Shown: piece after piece, positions 1,862 through 28,298 of the stretch
How positions within the stretch are numbered: position 1 is the first letter of the stretch
Layout of the letters: every line of letters starts with the position of its first letter
Virus record (IMG/VR): IMGVR_UViG_3300022745_000087
Span: 1 to 38,779 of that record
From: a virus
DNA: 38,779 nt
Strand: one strand, 5' to 3'
Notes under the pieces: model-generated
Database searches by the model: none
What the model was told of the DNA's origin: nothing
The model's input: the letters and a program-made list of their open reading frames with translations, nothing else
Program-made: the position numbers and the translations under genes

Positions 1862-3704
1862 GTTTGCCGACATAAACGCGGTCATTGAACGGGCGATGGA
1901 GTTATTTGCTCCACCGCCCGATCTCACTGTTTCTCAGTGGGCTGACAAATATCGTCGTCTATCCCCTGAGTCCTCGGCCAGCCCCGGTATCTATCGCACC
2001 GAACGCACTGAATACATGCGTGAGCCGATGGACATGATCGGTCGGCCCGGTGTCCGTATCGTATCCCTCATGGCGTCGGCACAGGTCGCTAAATCCACAT
2101 TCCTTGAAAATACTCTTGGCTATTTGATGCACCAAGACCCATGCCCGATCATGGTGGTGCAACCGACCATCGACTCAGTTAAAATGTTCTCAAAAGAACG
2201 TCTCGCCCCGATGCTCCGCGATACACCGGTATTGCGCGGGCTGGTGAAAGAGGCTCGTAGCCGCGATAGCGGTAACACCCTTATGGCTAAATCGTTCCCC
2301 GGTGGAACATTGGCGATGGTTGGTTCAAATGCTCCTGCCGGTCTGGCGTCGAGGCCGATCAGGGCAGTATTATTTGATGAAGTCGACCGATTTGAATTAT
2401 CTGCCGGTACCGAGGGTGATCCGATCAACCTTGCGATCAAGCGCACCACGACATTTTGGAACCGTATTATCGCTATGGTGTCGACGCCGGGCGATAAAGG
2501 CTCAAGCCGGATCGAAATGGCATTTGAGGCCGGTGACAAGCGCCGCTATTGGTGCCCGTGCCCTGACTGCAAGGAATATCAGACCCTCAAGTGGTCATCG
2601 GTGGTCTGGCAGGATGGTGATGCCGACACTGCCCGCTATATCTGTGAGCATTGCGGTAGCGTTTGGGATGATTCCCGCAGAAATATCGCCGTCCGTCGAG
2701 GTGAATGGCGGGCTGAGAAGCCCTTTAACGGTAACGTCAGTTATCACCTGAATCAGCTTTATTCCCCGTTTGCACCTCTGGCTGACGGTGTGCGAGACTT
2801 CCTCGCGGCCAAGGGTAACGCTAATTTGCTCAAGACTTGGGTAAATACGTTTCTCGGCGAGACTTGGGAGGACGTTGGTAAGCGCCTTGAATGGTCTGAC
2901 ATCATGGGTCACCGGGAAGAATACCCAAACAAGGTGCCGCCCGAAGTCACGCTAATTACTGGTGCAGTCGACACTCAGGATGATCGTTTCGAAGTTGAAT
3001 TTGTCGGCTGGGGCGATGATCACAAGTCGTGGTCGCTGGGATACCACAAGATTTACGGTGATTTGTCGACACCGGCACCGTGGCAGGAATTGCGATCTCT
3101 GCTGGGGCAGACATGGGTGCATCCGATATTTGGTGAAATGTCCTGCCGGATGACCTGCATGGACTCTGGTGGTCACTATACATCATCGGTCTATAAATTT
3201 ACTCAGTCGACAACCCGTGTCGCGGCTGTCAAAGGCGTCAGCGGTTTCGGTAAGCCGATGGTTGGTACAGCATCCCGAAATAACCTCGACGGGGCACAGG
3301 TATTTATGCTGGGTGTGGACACGATCAAGGAATTGGTTGTCGCACGACTGAAGGTCGCCAAAACAACCGAGGCCGGATACTGTGCCTTCCCTGAAGATCG
3401 GGAGGAAGAATATTTCCGAGGGCTGACGGCTGAAACGCTGATCACCAGATTGGTCAAGGGCTTCAAGAAACAGGAATGGGTCAAGATCAGGCCGAGGAAC
3501 GAACCTTTCGACTTGAGGGTATATGCCACGGCAGCCCTCGAAATGCTTCAGGTCGACCTTGGGGCACAGCGGCGGGCAGCATTGCGAATTGCACTTCGCC
3601 GTGTTACTAGGCAAGCTGAAGATCAGGCACCAGCGGCAAAGGCCAAGGCCAAGAAACAGTCGACCGGGCGCGATGATTGGGTCAACGGGTGGAAACATGA
3701 CTAG
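1854..3704 (+). CDS. terL: terminase large subunit (lambda GpA-like)
   Basis: This is the ATPase and nuclease of the packaging motor. The N-terminal ATPase domain has a degenerate Walker A around residues 74-82 (ASAQVAKST) and Walker B VLFDEVD (172-178), as in GpA rather than HK97-type terminases. A Cys cluster (CPCPDC, then CEHCG about 30 residues on) is also typical of GpA. The RNase-H-like nuclease half begins near GAVDTQDDRFEVEFVGWG. The length of 616 aa is usual for the family. The start is GTG at 1854, overlapping the upstream stop by 8 bp. A GpA-type subunit beside a Nu1-type small subunit argues for cos-type cutting, but I could not identify the cos site. Confidence 0.93.
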   Translation: MPKFADINAVIERAMELFAPPPDLTVSQWADKYRRLSPESSASPGIYRTERTEYMREPMDMIGRPGVRIVSLMASAQVAKSTFLENTLGYLMHQDPCPIMVVQPTIDSVKMFSKERLAPMLRDTPVLRGLVKEARSRDSGNTLMAKSFPGGTLAMVGSNAPAGLASRPIRAVLFDEVDRFELSAGTEGDPINLAIKRTTTFWNRIIAMVSTPGDKGSSRIEMAFEAGDKRRYWCPCPDCKEYQTLKWSSVVWQDGDADTARYICEHCGSVWDDSRRNIAVRRGEWRAEKPFNGNVSYHLNQLYSPFAPLADGVRDFLAAKGNANLLKTWVNTFLGETWEDVGKRLEWSDIMGHREEYPNKVPPEVTLITGAVDTQDDRFEVEFVGWGDDHKSWSLGYHKIYGDLSTPAPWQELRSLLGQTWVHPIFGEMSCRMTCMDSGGHYTSSVYKFTQSTTRVAAVKGVSGFGKPMVGTASRNNLDGAQVFMLGVDTIKELVVARLKVAKTTEAGYCAFPEDREEEYFRGLTAETLITRLVKGFKKQEWVKIRPRNEPFDLRVYATAALEMLQVDLGAQRRAALRIALRRVTRQAEDQAPAAKAKAKKQSTGRDDWVNGWKHD

Positions 3705-4242
3705 CAATCCTTTCGACGCTGCCGCCTCGCCAATCGGTAACCCTGTGACCATCATCGCCGGTTCCTATATCAACTGGCGGAAATCCTTCGACTATGATTC
3801 GGCGCTTTTCGTCGTCTATTGCTCTTTCCGTATGACCGGTGAACCGCTCCACAAGATTACCGGTGTTTACCAGAGTGGTGGATATTGGTCATTTGCAATC
3901 CCCTCGGTCACCTCGGCAAATTGGACGGTTGGGCAGTATGCAATTGACTACAGCGTCAAGCGTATTTCCGATTCCGAGGAAGCTATTGTTGAGTCGGGCC
4001 AGATTGAAATCACCTTGCCTGCAAGTGATCGCCGTATCCATGCGCAGATCATGCTGGCAAAGATCGAAAGCATCCTTGAAAATCGGGCTGACAATGATGT
4101 CGATTCTTATTCGATCTCGGGCCGGTCGATTTCCAAGATGCCGATCACCGAATTGCGCAAGTGGCGCGAATACTACAAATCTGAGATCGCCGAGAATTCG
4201 ACGGGCCGGAAAACCAATAAAGTGAAGGTGATGTTCGGATGA
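3697..4242 (+). CDS. gpW-like head-tail connector with an extra N-terminal beta domain
   Basis: The protein is 181 aa, starting at ATG 3697 after GGGTGGAAAC. About 65 C-terminal residues (RIHAQIMLAKIESILENRA, then SYSISGRSISKMPITELRKWREYY) match the pattern of gpW-type connectors, which sit between terminase and portal genes in lambda-like phages. The first 110 residues form a separate beta-rich unit resembling Ig-like or BppU-N-type virion domains. A gpW is normally about 70 aa, so this looks like a fusion. It ends 4 bp into the portal gene. The role in head completion is inferred from the C-terminal pattern and position. Confidence 0.6.
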   Translation: MTSNPFDAAASPIGNPVTIIAGSYINWRKSFDYDSALFVVYCSFRMTGEPLHKITGVYQSGGYWSFAIPSVTSANWTVGQYAIDYSVKRISDSEEAIVESGQIEITLPASDRRIHAQIMLAKIESILENRADNDVDSYSISGRSISKMPITELRKWREYYKSEIAENSTGRKTNKVKVMFG

Positions 4243-5756
4243 AATGGAATCCCTTTTCCCGCGCCCCGGCACCGGCAGTCGTGCGCCAAGAGCCAACTGT
4301 GGCCCGTCGCCGGTCCTATCAGGCCGCGCAGTCTGTGGCCCGCTACAGCGACTTCGACACCTCGGAAGGCTCCGCAGATACCGAGTTGTCCATCGGCCTT
4401 CAGAAGGTGCGCGCCAAGGCTCGGTCGCTGGGTCGCAATTCCTCGGCCATGAAGCGGTATATCCACCTGATGCAGGTCAACGTGGTTGGGCCGGGTGGCT
4501 TCCATTATCAGTGCCGGGTGCGCAAGCAAGATGCGACCTTGGACACATCGCTGAATTCCCGCGTCGAGAATGCTTGGTTTGCGTTCTGCCAATCGCCGAT
4601 GGCGAACAAGAAACACAAGATGCGTGATCTCGACCGGCTAGCAATGGCGTCGATTTGCCGCGATGGTGAATTCTTCGCAGAGTATATCTATGACCTGAGT
4701 TTCAGCAAATTTGCGGATGGAATTGCTGTTCATCCGATTGAAGCTGATATGTTGGATCACACCCTGAATACGATCAACACCGCCAACGGCAATCGGATCA
4801 AGCTGGGTGTTGAAATGGACGACCTGGATACGCCGGTTGCCTATTGGTTTTTCACTTCCCATCCCGGTGACTTCGGGTGGACGGTGAATAATGCCAAGAA
4901 TCGCCACCGGCGAATCCCTGCCGAACGAATCATTCACGTCTATGACGAATTGCGTGTCGGCCAGTCGCGTGGTGAACCTCCAACGTCATCGGTCGTCAAC
5001 ACGATCAAGATGCTTGATGGGTACCGTGAGGCCGAGGTGACCGGTCGCCGCGTCATGGCAGCACAGGGCGGCTTCATCGAAACAGAGATCGGTGCGGCTT
5101 CCAATATCGACGCTCTGGCCGATGGTACCGAGACTGATGATGAAGACTCTGATCTGGTGATGTCGCTTGAACCGGGTACCTATCGCAGCCTCAAGCCCGG
5201 TCAGAGTTTCAAGGTCGCAAATCCCGGCGGCTCCGTCACCGACTTTGCCGACTTCGACACCCAACTGAAAAAAGATATCAGCATGGGTGTGAACATCAGC
5301 AATATGTCGCTCGGTATGGAAGTGGGTGGCGTCAGCTATTCTGGCGGTCGGACGGTCACGATTGAGGACCGGGATACCTATAAATCCATGCAGGTATTTA
5401 TTATCGACAACCTGAAGGAACCGATATTTAAAGAGTGGCTGAAAATGCACCTCTTGCGTCCTGATGCGCAGATTCCGCCCTCCAAGGGTCCTGCAATCCT
5501 GTTTAACTCGACCTTCCGAGGCCGGGGCTGGGATTGGGTTGATCCTGCCAAGGATATCAAGGCCAACGCCGAGGCTTTGCGCACCCGTCAAACATCGCTG
5601 TCCAGAATTGCGGCGGATCGCGGAATGGACGTGACCGATTTGATCCTTGAGATCAAGTCAGATGAAGAATTGCTGAAGGCGGCTGGTTTGACACTGACCA
5701 CTGATGCTGTTACAACGCCCGTTAAACCGCCGAAGGGTTCAACAAATGCCGCCTGA
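4239..5756 (+). CDS. portal protein (lambda GpB-like)
   Basis: This forms the dodecameric ring at the unique capsid vertex through which DNA enters. Recognisable lambda-family features are a basic N-terminus with RVRAKARSLGRNSSAMKRY-like wording, VVGPGG shortly after, a central HPIEADMLD segment, INIS-type NISNMSLGMEVGGVSYS around the stem/clip region, and a C-terminal helical part. The length of 505 aa is normal for the family. The start overlaps the connector gene by 4 bp, and the stop lies 11 bp inside the next gene. That pattern suggests translational coupling along the whole head operon. Confidence 0.9.
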   Translation: MKWNPFSRAPAPAVVRQEPTVARRRSYQAAQSVARYSDFDTSEGSADTELSIGLQKVRAKARSLGRNSSAMKRYIHLMQVNVVGPGGFHYQCRVRKQDATLDTSLNSRVENAWFAFCQSPMANKKHKMRDLDRLAMASICRDGEFFAEYIYDLSFSKFADGIAVHPIEADMLDHTLNTINTANGNRIKLGVEMDDLDTPVAYWFFTSHPGDFGWTVNNAKNRHRRIPAERIIHVYDELRVGQSRGEPPTSSVVNTIKMLDGYREAEVTGRRVMAAQGGFIETEIGAASNIDALADGTETDDEDSDLVMSLEPGTYRSLKPGQSFKVANPGGSVTDFADFDTQLKKDISMGVNISNMSLGMEVGGVSYSGGRTVTIEDRDTYKSMQVFIIDNLKEPIFKEWLKMHLLRPDAQIPPSKGPAILFNSTFRGRGWDWVDPAKDIKANAEALRTRQTSLSRIAADRGMDVTDLILEIKSDEELLKAAGLTLTTDAVTTPVKPPKGSTNAA

Positions 5757-24585: not shown

Positions 24586-25194
24586 TCAGTCGGGCTGTTT
24601 GGTCAACAGCACGTTGTAGAGGGCGCGGCGGGCGGTTTCGTTGGTTTCGAAAACCGAGGGGTCGGGATAGCCTGCTTGGGCGTACATGGCAACCACCGTT
24701 GGGCCGTCGACCACGCCGGTCGTCATCATGTTGGTGACCTTGGCGATCAGTTGTTCATAGCTGATCGGCGGCGGCAGGACCGGGGCGGCGACCGGCATCG
24801 TCGGCATGGCGGGGGCGGCGACCGGCATCGTCGGCATGGCAGCAACCGGGGCAGCCGGGATCACCGGAGCGGTCACAGCGCCACCCTTGGCAAGGAACGC
24901 AGCACGGGCTTTCTTGGCTTCCTCGGATTTGCCACGCTTGGAACGCCAAGTACCGTCATCGTTGAACGACTTCGGGTCACTGTGGTATTCCGCGTTCCAC
25001 GGCAGACCATCCTTGTCAACGGCATCGGTGATCACTTCGGCGGGCACTTCCACCGGAGCGGCGACGGGCGTTGCGACGGGGGCCACCAGCGTTGTGGTCG
25101 GTGCCGGGGCCGCAGCCTTGCCGGTGACCGATTGCAGATGGGCGATCAGTTGTTCCGGCGTATCAAAATTGTAGGTCAGTTGAAGCTTGGCCAT
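24586..25194 (-). CDS. Ala/Pro-rich phage protein with GLPWNAEYHS motif
   Basis: The 202-aa protein starts at ATG 25194 after AGAGGGAAAAC. It is the first gene of the leftward operon. A central DKDGLPWNAEYHS followed by DGTWRSKRG is a motif found in many phage replication-region proteins of unknown role. It is flanked by low-complexity Val/Ala/Pro linkers, including a tandem AAPAMPTMPV duplication with a near-perfect DNA repeat at about 24784-24840. The N- and C-terminal ends are helical. It probably binds DNA or a replication partner, but I cannot name the function. Confidence 0.65.
   Translation of the reverse strand: MAKLQLTYNFDTPEQLIAHLQSVTGKAAAPAPTTTLVAPVATPVAAPVEVPAEVITDAVDKDGLPWNAEYHSDPKSFNDDGTWRSKRGKSEEAKKARAAFLAKGGAVTAPVIPAAPVAAMPTMPVAAPAMPTMPVAAPVLPPPISYEQLIAKVTNMMTTGVVDGPTVVAMYAQAGYPDPSVFETNETARRALYNVLLTKQPD
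24784..24840 (-). repeat. tandem in-frame duplication inside the Ala/Pro-rich gene
   Basis: Two consecutive near-identical copies of about 30 bp encode repeated PAMPTMPVA units. This is typical slippage in a low-complexity linker. Confidence 0.75.
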
Positions 25195-25224
25195 GTTTTC
25201 CCTCTTGGTTGATGGCAGTTTGTC

Positions 25225-25268
25225 GGTTGACAACATGGACTAATATAGACTAACAAAATACCAGTCAA
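25225..25268. promoter_or_regulatory. divergent promoter region between the two replication blocks
   Basis: The 87-bp gap (25195-25281) separates the leftward and rightward operons. On the minus strand TTGACT (25263-25268) and TATTAG (25240-25245) are exactly 17 bp apart, a good sigma70-type match for the leftward operon. On the plus strand GGTTGACA (25225-25232) and TATAGA (25244-25249) offer -35 and -10 elements with imperfect spacing. GGTTGACA also occurs repeatedly in the other divergent region (36910-37247), so it may be a shared operator. Confidence 0.5.
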
Positions 25269-25281
25269 CAGGAAAATAGCG

Positions 25282-27753
25282 ATGAAGCTTCGGCCCTACC
25301 AAGAAAAACAGGTACTCGGCGTGTACGCGGAGTGGCAAGCGGGCCACCGCAACGTCTTGAATGTACTACCCACGGGCGGCGGAAAAACCGTTGAAATGGG
25401 CAAGATAGCGGCTGACCTTCAAGTGCCCGGTGTGGCTATCGCTCACCGGAAAGAGTTGATCGGCCAGATCAGTCGTGCAATGGCAGCCTTCGGACTGCGA
25501 CACAATATCATCGCGGCTGATGGTACCGTGCGCGCCTGTATCCAGTCGCATGTCGAGAAGTTTGGTCGCAGCTACTATGATTCGCGGGCCAAGTTCACCG
25601 TGTCCTCTGTCGACACGTTGGCGGTGCGGGCGGATACCTTGATCCAGTGGGCAAACACTGTGGGCTGCTGGCTGATTGACGAATGTTTCCCGGCAGGAAC
25701 AATGGTTGATGGTCGACCAATTGAAACACTCAGTATCGGTGATATGGTCACAGCCTTTGATGAAACATCAGGTGATCTGACCATCAAACCCATCACTCGA
25801 CTATTTAAAAACCCCATGCCCGATCAGATGATCCGACTTGCATGGGCGCACCATGTTCTGTACGTTACAGGTGGGCATCCAATCTGGACGCGCAGAGGAT
25901 GGATGAATGCGAAAGACCTTACCACCAGTGATGAAGTGCTTGATGTGCAACTCGCCAGTCAACCGACCAAGTGCGAGCATGGCACTGTATCGTCGGAATG
26001 GTCGACCATTTTGCAGCATGACGTGCAGCACGAAATACAGATCAACAATTTCATCGGTGACGATGGCTGCGACCAACAGGCGACTAGCATCAGCGAGAAT
26101 GAAATCAAACAACCCGATGAAATCGGAAACGTCCCGATTGAAAATGGCGTCGACGCTGAAGGTAATTGGGCACGCACCGCCCATTCGTGGTGGGAACGGA
26201 AAACCGCCGACCAAAGCCGAAATGATGCTGATGTTGCTACTGGCTCCGATGGGATTTGTGGAGCAATTTGTATTTCGCACGACATTCCCGAAAGGAACGG
26301 GGCCGATGCATTACAAAATAGATTGTGCCCATCCGACATTGAAAATAGCAGTAGAGGCAGACGGGACAAGTCACACCGGAAAGCGTCGGATATCCGATCA
26401 GCGGAAGGATGCATTTCTGAGTGGGTGCGGTTGGAAAGTGTTACGGTTCTCCAACGAAACAATTCTGACTTCCCCGCTGGCGACTCAGTTTATAATATTG
26501 AAGTTGCTGACCTCCATACCTACACGGCTGCCGGGATTGTAGTACACAATTGTCACCACTGTCTGCCGGATAACAAGTGGGGTCGGGCGATCTCGCTATT
26601 CCCGAACGCTTACGGTATCGGCTTTACGGCCACACCTGTCAGGGCAGATCGGCGTTCGCTGGGTCGGGCACAGAACGGGCTGTTTGATGCTATGGTGATC
26701 GGCCCGCCAATGCGGGAATTGATCGACTCTGGCAGCCTGTGCGACTACCGTATTTTTGCACCGCCCGCGTCAATCCATCGGGAAGATATCGAGATCGGTT
26801 CCACTGGTGATTTTTCGGCACCGTCACTCAGGAAGGTGATGCATGAGTCTAAAATTGTTGGCGATGTCGTTGCAAGCTACATCAGGTTCGCCAAAGGAAG
26901 GCGCGGTATTACTTTCGTTGTTGATGTGGATCAGGCCACCGATGTCGCTCTTGCCTATCAAGCCCAAGGAATAAGGGCCGAGGCGGTCAGCGCCAAAACA
27001 CCTGAATTGGTGCGCGAAGGGTTGATGCGCAAATTTGAGCGCGGCGACCTCGACCAATTGGTAAACGTCGACCTATTCGGCGAGGGTCTGGACGTGCCTG
27101 CGGTCGAGGTGGTCAGCATGGCGCGACCAACTGAATCCTATGGTCTCTATGTCCAGCAATTCGGTCGGGCGCTGCGGTTGCTGCCGGGAAAGTCACACGG
27201 CATCATCATTGATCATGTCGGCAATGTACGCCGCCACGGGCTGCCAGATGCGCCTCGCAAATGGTCGCTGTTTGATGAACAAGCTGGTAAGCGCCGGTTG
27301 CGTGATCCTGATGTAGAGCCTGTCTCGACCTGTACCTCCTGTTTCCTCGCATATTCGGGCTTCCTGAAAATATGCCCGCACTGTGGATTTCAATCCGTTC
27401 CTGCCGGTCGGAAATTGCCGGAGCAAGTTGCTGGTGACCTTGAGGAATTGGACCCTGAAATTCTGGCGGCAATGCGAGGTGAGATCGCTCGTATTGACGG
27501 TTCGCCTTTGATACCTGCCGGTGTCAGCGATATTGTCGCCAAGGCGATCAGCAACAATTGGCGGAACCGGCAGGCCGCCCAGAACGATCTGCGGGCGGCA
27601 ATCGCCCAATGGGCCGGTAACCTGAAGCACATCGGCCAGACTGACTCTCAAATCTATCGGCGCTTTTACCACAATTACGGTGTCGATATTGCAACCGCCC
27701 AAACTCTCAACGCAGCCGATGCTGCTAAACTGATGGAGAAGATATCAGAATGA
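25282..27753 (+). CDS. SF2 DEAD/DEAH-type helicase interrupted by an intein
   Basis: The 823-codon ORF encodes a phage helicase of about 534 aa after removal of the 289-residue intein. Motif I is LPTGGGKTVEMG (residues 29-40). Motif II is DE-CHH, split by the intein between Glu134 and Cys424. Motif III is GFTATPVRAD, and motif VI is QQFGRALRLLPGK. A zinc ribbon CTSC-CPHCG lies in the C-terminal third, and the last 100 residues are helical (NNWRNRQAAQNDLRAA). The helicase can act only after splicing restores the box. It probably unwinds replication or recombination intermediates. It is the first gene of the rightward block and overlaps the next by 4 bp. Confidence 0.9.
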   Translation: MKLRPYQEKQVLGVYAEWQAGHRNVLNVLPTGGGKTVEMGKIAADLQVPGVAIAHRKELIGQISRAMAAFGLRHNIIAADGTVRACIQSHVEKFGRSYYDSRAKFTVSSVDTLAVRADTLIQWANTVGCWLIDECFPAGTMVDGRPIETLSIGDMVTAFDETSGDLTIKPITRLFKNPMPDQMIRLAWAHHVLYVTGGHPIWTRRGWMNAKDLTTSDEVLDVQLASQPTKCEHGTVSSEWSTILQHDVQHEIQINNFIGDDGCDQQATSISENEIKQPDEIGNVPIENGVDAEGNWARTAHSWWERKTADQSRNDADVATGSDGICGAICISHDIPERNGADALQNRLCPSDIENSSRGRRDKSHRKASDIRSAEGCISEWVRLESVTVLQRNNSDFPAGDSVYNIEVADLHTYTAAGIVVHNCHHCLPDNKWGRAISLFPNAYGIGFTATPVRADRRSLGRAQNGLFDAMVIGPPMRELIDSGSLCDYRIFAPPASIHREDIEIGSTGDFSAPSLRKVMHESKIVGDVVASYIRFAKGRRGITFVVDVDQATDVALAYQAQGIRAEAVSAKTPELVREGLMRKFERGDLDQLVNVDLFGEGLDVPAVEVVSMARPTESYGLYVQQFGRALRLLPGKSHGIIIDHVGNVRRHGLPDAPRKWSLFDEQAGKRRLRDPDVEPVSTCTSCFLAYSGFLKICPHCGFQSVPAGRKLPEQVAGDLEELDPEILAAMRGEIARIDGSPLIPAGVSDIVAKAISNNWRNRQAAQNDLRAAIAQWAGNLKHIGQTDSQIYRRFYHNYGVDIATAQTLNAADAAKLMEKISE
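25684..26550 (+). other. intein inside the helicase DE-CHH box
   Basis: Block A begins CFPAGTMVDG (Cys135, first residue). Block B is VTGGHPIW (Thr196, His199), and the N-domain ends near KDLTTSDEVLDVQ. Block F is VYNIEVADLHTYTAAG and block G IVVHN-C (His422, Asn423, extein Cys424). All splicing residues of a class 1 intein are present. Between about residues 210 and 398 the intein frame shows no LAGLIDADG or HNH domain; it is polar (Asn/Asp/Arg/Ser) and reads like a linker. The DNA of that part encodes an endonuclease in another frame. Confidence 0.92.
25907..26542 (+). CDS. Vsr-like (EDxHD-type) homing endonuclease, nested in the intein in another reading frame
   Basis: The 211-codon ORF is in frame 2; the intein is in frame 1. 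AGAGGA (25894-25899) lies 7 nt before the ATG. A zinc-binding module has Cys11, Cys14, Cys36 and Cys40 (CLMC, then CSMTC). SNNPMKS and PIRGGNGKPPTK follow, wording I know from free-standing phage homing nucleases. The nuclease core is HYKIDCAHPTLKIAVEADG with SH, DQRKDAFLSGCGW, then VLRFSN (outline). Likely active residues are Asp139, Glu150, Asp152, His156 and Asp164. The stop is 8 bp before the intein end. The core ends near 26465, so C-terminal splicing blocks overlap only its tail. It should cut intein-free helicase alleles. Confidence 0.88.
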   Translation: MRKTLPPVMKCLMCNSPVNRPSASMALYRRNGRPFCSMTCSTKYRSTISSVTMAATNRRLASARMKSNNPMKSETSRLKMASTLKVIGHAPPIRGGNGKPPTKAEMMLMLLLAPMGFVEQFVFRTTFPKGTGPMHYKIDCAHPTLKIAVEADGTSHTGKRRISDQRKDAFLSGCGWKVLRFSNETILTSPLATQFIILKLLTSIPTRLPGL

Positions 27754-28298
27754 CGATTTTGACACCCGCCCGTATTCGCGCAATGGGGAACATCAGCCGG
27801 TGGGGCGGCTGGGTATCCTCGCCGTGGTCGGTTCTGGATCATACCATCACCGGTGCAATCCTGATGCAGCACAAGCGGCGACCGGCAGCCGAGATCAGGG
27901 ATTGGTTGATCCATGATGTCGAGGAAACCGCCTTCATGGGTGATGTACCTACACCGCATAAAGAGCGGTATTGCAATGACTTGTACCGCGCCGAGGTGGA
28001 GGAATTCAACACGGCTCTGCGGGTCGAGGTTGGCTTGCCGCCTGTCCCTCACCTAGGCGTCAAGGTGGTTGACGAGATCATGTTGCGGGCAGAATATGCC
28101 ACGGTGAGTCTGAAAGTGGACCCCGTTCCTCGGATGGATTTTGATGTCGTCAATGCGATAGCGATCATCAATCATGCCCTGATCTCTCCGAGTGACCGGC
28201 CCGCTCTGTTTTGGCAACTGTGGGTGCAACATGATCCTGACGCGAACCGAGGCGATGCTGGCGGAATGGGGTACTCTCGACCGGGCTACTCTCAGTAA
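27750..28298 (+). CDS. HD-domain phosphohydrolase (YfbR-like)
   Basis: The 182-aa protein starts in an ATGA overlap with the helicase stop. The metal site is made of His31 (SVLDHT), His55-Asp56 (WLIHDVEETAFMGDVPTPHK) and an Asp in the later helix (LRAEYATV region is structural). This is the pattern of phage HD hydrolases that act on dNMPs or related nucleotides and adjust pools. It works logically with the dNMP kinase of the opposite block. The C-terminal tail is Gly/Asp-rich and overlaps the next ORF. Confidence 0.75.
   Translation: MTILTPARIRAMGNISRWGGWVSSPWSVLDHTITGAILMQHKRRPAAEIRDWLIHDVEETAFMGDVPTPHKERYCNDLYRAEVEEFNTALRVEVGLPPVPHLGVKVVDEIMLRAEYATVSLKVDPVPRMDFDVVNAIAIINHALISPSDRPALFWQLWVQHDPDANRGDAGGMGYSRPGYSQ

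Follow-up and report, generated by a model that had tools for sequence, protein, structure and literature searches.

How can an intein carry a homing nuclease that is written in a reading frame other than its own? Canonical bifunctional inteins hold an in-frame LAGLIDADG or HNH nuclease. The question is raised by the DNA analyzed here, an IMG/VR virus record of 38,779 bases (the window), which encodes a portal protein, a major head protein, a tape measure, a tail fibre, a primase and a methyltransferase. An ORF of 823 codons at positions 25282-27753 of the forward strand, on which the window's features described below are located unless stated otherwise, encodes a superfamily II (DEAH/RadD-like) phage DNA helicase (PHROG 16 DNA helicase, 6e-83; ResIII, 2e-14; Helicase_C, 9e-13). 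This ORF is one unbroken frame, not the two ORFs of a fractured gene, and it is read through an insert of 289 codons (25684-26550) at helicase motif II (LIDE/CHH; the slash marks the insertion point). Inside the insert, in the +1 frame, lies a second ORF of 211 codons (25907-26542). Just upstream of the helicase and divergent from it there is a 216-codon ORF with Ala/Pro-rich near-repeats (PTMPVAAPV...; 24586-25236, reverse strand).

The insert was identified as an intein by matches to PT-HINT (9e-10), PF14890 (1e-4) and the intein C-terminus profile TIGR01443 (2e-5). Cys135, Thr196/His199, His422-Asn423 and the extein Cys424 are all present, and the splicing residues together with blocks A, B, F and G are kept across 35 aligned inteins. 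AlphaFold predicted a Hint fold, which Foldseek matched to BIL domains and to the Mtu RecA and DnaB inteins. The fold is confident in two parts. The N-terminal half, with blocks A and B, comprises intein residues 1-93 (25684-25962; pLDDT 95-98) and is conserved in the 35 aligned sequences; the C-terminal half comprises residues 241-289 (26404-26550; pLDDT 85-96), shows excess conservation and consists of a strand, W.RV.SVEV, followed by blocks F and G and the terminal His-Asn. Residues 94-240 between them (25963-26403) are predicted to be a disordered linker (pLDDT 34-46), all of which is covered by the nuclease gene and which is no more conserved than that gene imposes. An RNA intron was rejected as the type of insert: there was no Rfam match at 25200-27800 with E up to 1, and no group I or group II intron RNA fold was found there.

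The second ORF encodes an EDxHD (Vsr-like/DUF559) nuclease; the match to DUF559 (2e-11) is shared by 20 out of 20 relatives. The catalytic residues Asp139, Glu150, Asp152, His156 and Asp164 (26321-26398) are invariant in 20 sequences (alignment A1). They are preceded by a four-Cys zinc module (25937-26026), of which Cys11 and Cys14 are invariant and Cys36 and Cys40 at least 90% conserved (alignment A5). The model is confident throughout (pLDDT 91); its top structural match is I-Bth0305I (3r3p; 7.9e-4, prob 1.00), with 3hrl next (2.7e-3) and a weak match to Vsr itself (1vsr; 0.08). The endonuclease, being in the +1 frame, is not continuous with the intein polypeptide. These data support reading the insert as an intein with a putative homing nuclease that has its own gene, in a different frame. 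This had been proposed in the initial annotation, and its intein coordinates, catalytic residues and both frames were found to be as given when frames and residues were rechecked. Hint/intein and DUF559 profiles matched the respective frames, and relatives keep both the frame-2 protein, at about 30-50% identity, and the open intein frame.

A direct scan with the intein protein as a query found no relatives, because most of the search peptides fall in the fast-changing linker. The nuclease profile was used instead and succeeded. The first relatives came from an IMG/VR scan with the nuclease and from tblastn against phage genomes, which yielded 21 contigs and eight isolate loci. In 29 out of 29 of these the host ORF, a helicase or another gene, is open through the nuclease, which lies in its +1 frame. 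Phages with the dual locus include Vibrio 159E43-1b and the isolates Vibrio CP-T1, K391 and 1.088.O, Pseudomonas MR14 and Corynebacterium phi673; the isolate records annotate the long helicase only and not the nuclease. Further loci were collected by profile scans of viral contigs and GTDB genomes, and Hint-N/Hint-C profiles built in this analysis were found in the matching frame at 135 loci. Only one locus, L133, has Hint-N in the +1 phase with a broken linker; it is a fractured gene, and all other loci with Hint-N in this phase keep the intein frame open. A bias of the search toward dual loci was considered. It is countered by a scan that started from six free-standing nucleases plus the fractured L133, since 76 of its 80 loci were still dual and the other four were the free viral seeds. 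The total came to 211 dual loci (some contigs being counted more than once across scans), 33 of them from bacterial genome contigs, and the dual-locus nucleases form 120 clusters at 80% identity and 101 at 60%. DNA searches found no plasmid relatives. It is near certain that the dual-frame architecture is real and widespread.

The host genes are not uniform. Four dual-frame inteins (L021, L136, L149 and L151) are in a separate host group, whose motif (e.g. YILDE/CHMLS) resembles DnaX clamp-loader ATPases and not a helicase. One host ORF of 1391 codons (L015:614-4786) matches the Hint C-terminal profile once more at 4499-4561, far downstream, and perhaps contains a second intein.

Among the loci scanned no +2-phase case was seen, and only one nuclease (L146) is in frame with its intein. 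The genetic code offers a possible reason for the fixed phase. In the +1 phase an intein-frame stop needs a nuclease codon that ends in T before AA, AG or GA. NNT and NNC codons are always synonymous, and therefore any protein can shed such stops silently; because each stop-forming NNT codon has this silent alternative, the overlap can persist. In the +2 phase Met followed by an A-starting codon makes an unavoidable TGA, and at the protein level such a pair is present in 95 of 103 dual nucleases. The predicted signature is seen in the codons. None of 6304 T-ending codons in dual-locus nuclease genes precede AA, AG or GA, against 22.8% elsewhere, whereas 153 of 506 do so in the free-standing and fractured relatives. 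Similarly, the near-invariant Tyr136-Lys137 pair has TAC in all dual loci that possess it, while non-dual relatives use both TAC and TAT. The absence of stops was part of the definition of a dual locus, so the zero count is partly true by definition; it is nevertheless meaningful, because the search for Hint flanks took no account of stops and L133 was the single exception. Avoidable stops, together with a strand shared by the two proteins, would explain the fixed +1 phase.

The shared strand lies at the 3′ end of the overlap. From residue 241 of the intein (26404) onward the Hint fold is present again, and the last strand and helix of the nuclease extend to about 26515. Here one set of bases encodes both the nuclease-invariant GWKVLRFSN and, in the intein frame, the Hint strand W.RV.SVEV. 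In the dual-coded core (26420-26455), where the nuclease reads SGCGWKVLRFSN and the intein frame W.R[VL].SV, excess intein-frame conservation coincides with biased synonymous codons in the nuclease. The codon of Gly175 is GGG in 84 of 100 dual loci, while among other glycines it is used in 353 of 1047 (P = 6e-23). For Leu179 the share of TTR is 82 of 89 against 354 of 893, and for Arg180 that of AGR is 77 of 102 against 398 of 1275. On this codon evidence, the nuclease's silent choices at G175, L179 and R180 reflect the demand of the intein strand. Some 35-40 codons at this end are dual-coded in the full sense, with real structure in both proteins, and the earlier statement that the two functions scarcely overlap has to be corrected to that extent. 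Nuclease-free mini-inteins occupy the same helicase site in Vibrio phages K389 and K453 (L030:1906-2355 and L031:1906-2355); their RVKS/RIKS strand resembles the dual-coded one.

How the nuclease is translated bears on whether it is a separate protein at all. In the window a Shine-Dalgarno-like AGAGGA (25894-25899; anti-SD pairing -8.2 kcal/mol) is located 7 nt before the ATG at 25907, in the bases that encode the conserved Arg-Gly-Trp of the intein. In L133 (near 3981) the nuclease ribosome-binding site is likewise within the Arg-Gly-Trp codons, and in other relatives a GAGGT site precedes the nuclease ATG near Asp-Glu-Val codons. Candidate nuclease ATGs were compared with control ATGs from the nuclease body, from the host ORF and from the other two frames of the same interval. 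Pairing was stronger than in all three sets (P = 2e-5, 6e-5 and 3e-7), and 25% of candidates, against 10-11% of controls, reached -6 kcal/mol or lower.

The best-surviving alternative is a programmed +1 ribosomal frameshift inside the intein, which would give a fusion of N-extein, Hint-N and nuclease in place of a separate protein. A fixed shift calls for a constant phase, and in the dual loci that phase is always +1. A few loci, moreover, are without a clear start: some have no good SD, and L098 has no start codon before Cys36. However, at 91 of 91 loci a stop within the intein closes the nuclease frame, and an in-frame ATG is present between that upstream stop and Cys36 at 87 of 91. The enrichment of SD-like pairing before candidate ATGs also speaks against a shift, as does the free-standing L115 nuclease, which has its own ATG, and the constancy of phase can otherwise be accounted for by the code and the shared strand. 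We therefore regard frameshifting as improbable and favour internal initiation of the putative nuclease gene.

A second alternative is that the intein-frame stretch over the nuclease is a functional domain and more than a linker. Mean intein-frame identity does slightly exceed expectation (0.240 vs 0.209). A column-wise test against synonymous shuffles placed this excess, which is 0.00 at residues 90-238, only from about residue 244 on, where it is far higher, and AlphaFold gives no structure to the linker. In close Vibrio phage pairs the overlap substitutions at nuclease third positions numbered 29 against 5, 26 against 2, 18 against 6 and 8 against 3; the nucleases are 96.5-98.6% identical, and the intein frame loses 9-29 residues. 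Purifying selection therefore acts on the conserved nuclease, whereas the intein-frame residues change freely and the linker does no more than stay open. A functional domain, rejected by the per-column test, is very unlikely, and the role of linker first assigned to the intein frame is borne out. A further observation concerns the Vibrio phages L023 and L032, in which third positions differ at 3 of 90 sites in the intein and at 165 of 403 in the C-extein; this hints at recent horizontal spread, with the overlap constraint contributing.

The nuclease family is also found in other states. In L115, L057, L060 and L072 it is a free gene immediately 5′ of an intein-less DEAH helicase, whose start it overlaps; these free nucleases are placed like a homing gene beside its target. 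The suspected link to fractured genes is supported by L133, in which the helicase gene is fractured and this nuclease has kept its phase. It consists of a Hint-N half (3466-4038), the nuclease (3935-4699) and a Hint-C half (4579-5745); its linker is riddled with stops, but the dual-coded strand is intact. L146 is a conventional intein, the only in-frame member of this nuclease family. In the nuclease tree, the deep branches of which are weak, free, fractured and in-frame members are scattered among dual loci. Free relatives in L069 and L140 stand beside genes other than the DEAH helicase.

Insertion is almost always at DE/CH of motif II/Walker B in P-loop enzymes. The search for an intein-free allele was also successful: phage PEAT2 has an intein-less helicase with the contiguous, uninterrupted site LWILDE/AHHLLKNNKWGK. 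Homing would take place at the DE/CH site. In L072 (4870-4980) the helicase beside the free nuclease has its frame broken exactly at the insertion site (IDE, a 1-nt shift, GHHAAAPTY), possibly a scar of error-prone repair at a homing site, or else a sequencing error.

The architecture, its conservation, the selection on each frame, the codon signature and the empty alleles are read from sequence comparison; internal initiation, splicing, cleavage and homing are what we infer from them. The helicase would be made as one precursor, for which frame-1 ribosomes translate the two Hint halves and, between them, about 150 residues of disordered linker; the intein would then splice itself out. On the same mRNA a new start at the internal Shine-Dalgarno/ATG would yield, in the +1 frame, a separate EDxHD nuclease with its zinc module. 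This nuclease would cut intein-less helicase genes at the conserved motif II DNA (DE-H), and repair would copy the whole intein into the cut gene. Separate translation, splicing and homing is the likely mechanism, and a dual-frame intein with a separately translated nuclease that homes and an intein that splices is, in our judgment, a highly probable description of the locus.

It could be argued that the intein has lost splicing and that activity is confined to the nuclease, as has been suggested for the ShiLan element, which shows that an out-of-frame nuclease can persist without splicing (PMC11855218). The conservation of all splicing residues and blocks across the 35 inteins, the high-confidence predicted Hint fold and the fact that an unspliced insert would split helicase motif II make loss of splicing hardly probable.

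Chance was assessed by shuffling synonymous codons, with the protein sequence of the nuclease and its codon set left unchanged. For the window locus 5.2 intein-frame stops were expected and none seen (P = 0.0019), so that the 4 in 100,000 of the initial annotation is too small for the window alone; the reverse test, of an open nuclease frame given the intein protein, gave P = 0.05. The window locus by itself is suggestive, and it is the relatives that decide against chance: each of 20 loci has 0 intein-frame stops where 4.7-15.5 are expected. A frame open by chance, an indel in the assembly, or an intein reading across a nuclease in decay is scarcely credible. Although the window value is modest and reverse-strand ORFs nearby are likewise open, chance or assembly error is ruled out by recurrence in isolate phages, in three separately deposited CP-T1 relatives and in 120 clusters. 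Purifying selection on the nuclease argues against decay.

Besides in-frame fusion and gene fracture, these loci show a third arrangement, also stable, by which inteins carry nucleases, and they explain how two unrelated proteins share DNA with little conflict. We put at about even the chance that they form a widespread, undescribed class of intein. Every member would have its homing nuclease overprinted in +1 and two folded elements truly dual-coded, the universal NNT/NNC synonymy would keep the frame open, and the class would be one of the paths connecting free homing genes, in-frame inteins and the fractured genes from which split inteins come. The natural series of free, dual-frame, fractured and in-frame states is material for testing the origin of split inteins, and the clean phase-specific codon signature can be used to find more cases of a homing-nuclease family overlooked by annotation, being inside annotated helicases. 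If active, its members would be compact natural EDxHD nucleases aimed at motif II of P-loop enzymes.

With canonical inteins these elements share the Hint domain, the endonuclease between blocks B and F and the homing logic; they differ in that the nuclease is outside the intein polypeptide, L146 alone having it in frame. Fractured genes with split inteins and EDxHD nucleases were reportedly described by Dassa and colleagues in 2009. They have the same kind of nuclease, an intein and phage replication genes in common with the present loci, and L133 is such a gene; in the window, by contrast, the host gene is unbroken, one ORF running through the out-of-frame nuclease. I-Bth0305I (PDB 3R3P), the top structural match, has the same catalytic fold and motif but is described as a group I intron homing endonuclease (PMC3943268), whereas the nuclease here is inside an intein. 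The ShiLan domain and the Pacc40 gp60 insertion, reported by Arsenault, Gosselin and Gogarten in 2025 (PMC11855218), are mobile insertions in phage genes. Like the loci here, they leave the host frame open while hiding an endonuclease out of frame, their host-frame product is poorly ordered and free relatives are next to the same host gene. ShiLan differs in not being an intein, with no splicing found, and in having an HNH enzyme where an EDxHD one lies inside a complete Hint domain here; its nuclease is described in the third frame, no ribosome-binding site was found for it, and it is limited to a few mycobacteriophages. The same paper (PMC11855218) cites a preprint by Gosselin et al. 2025 (10.1101/2025.01.02.630785), on actinobacteriophage inteins of non-canonical architecture, and Gorbalenya 1998 for overlapping frames. 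The inteins of Gosselin et al. may have out-of-frame nucleases and be related to these, but they are from actinophages, and the dual loci here are mostly not. The closest precedent found for a dual-frame intein is the hidden HNH endonuclease of ShiLan, which lies in an element other than an intein.
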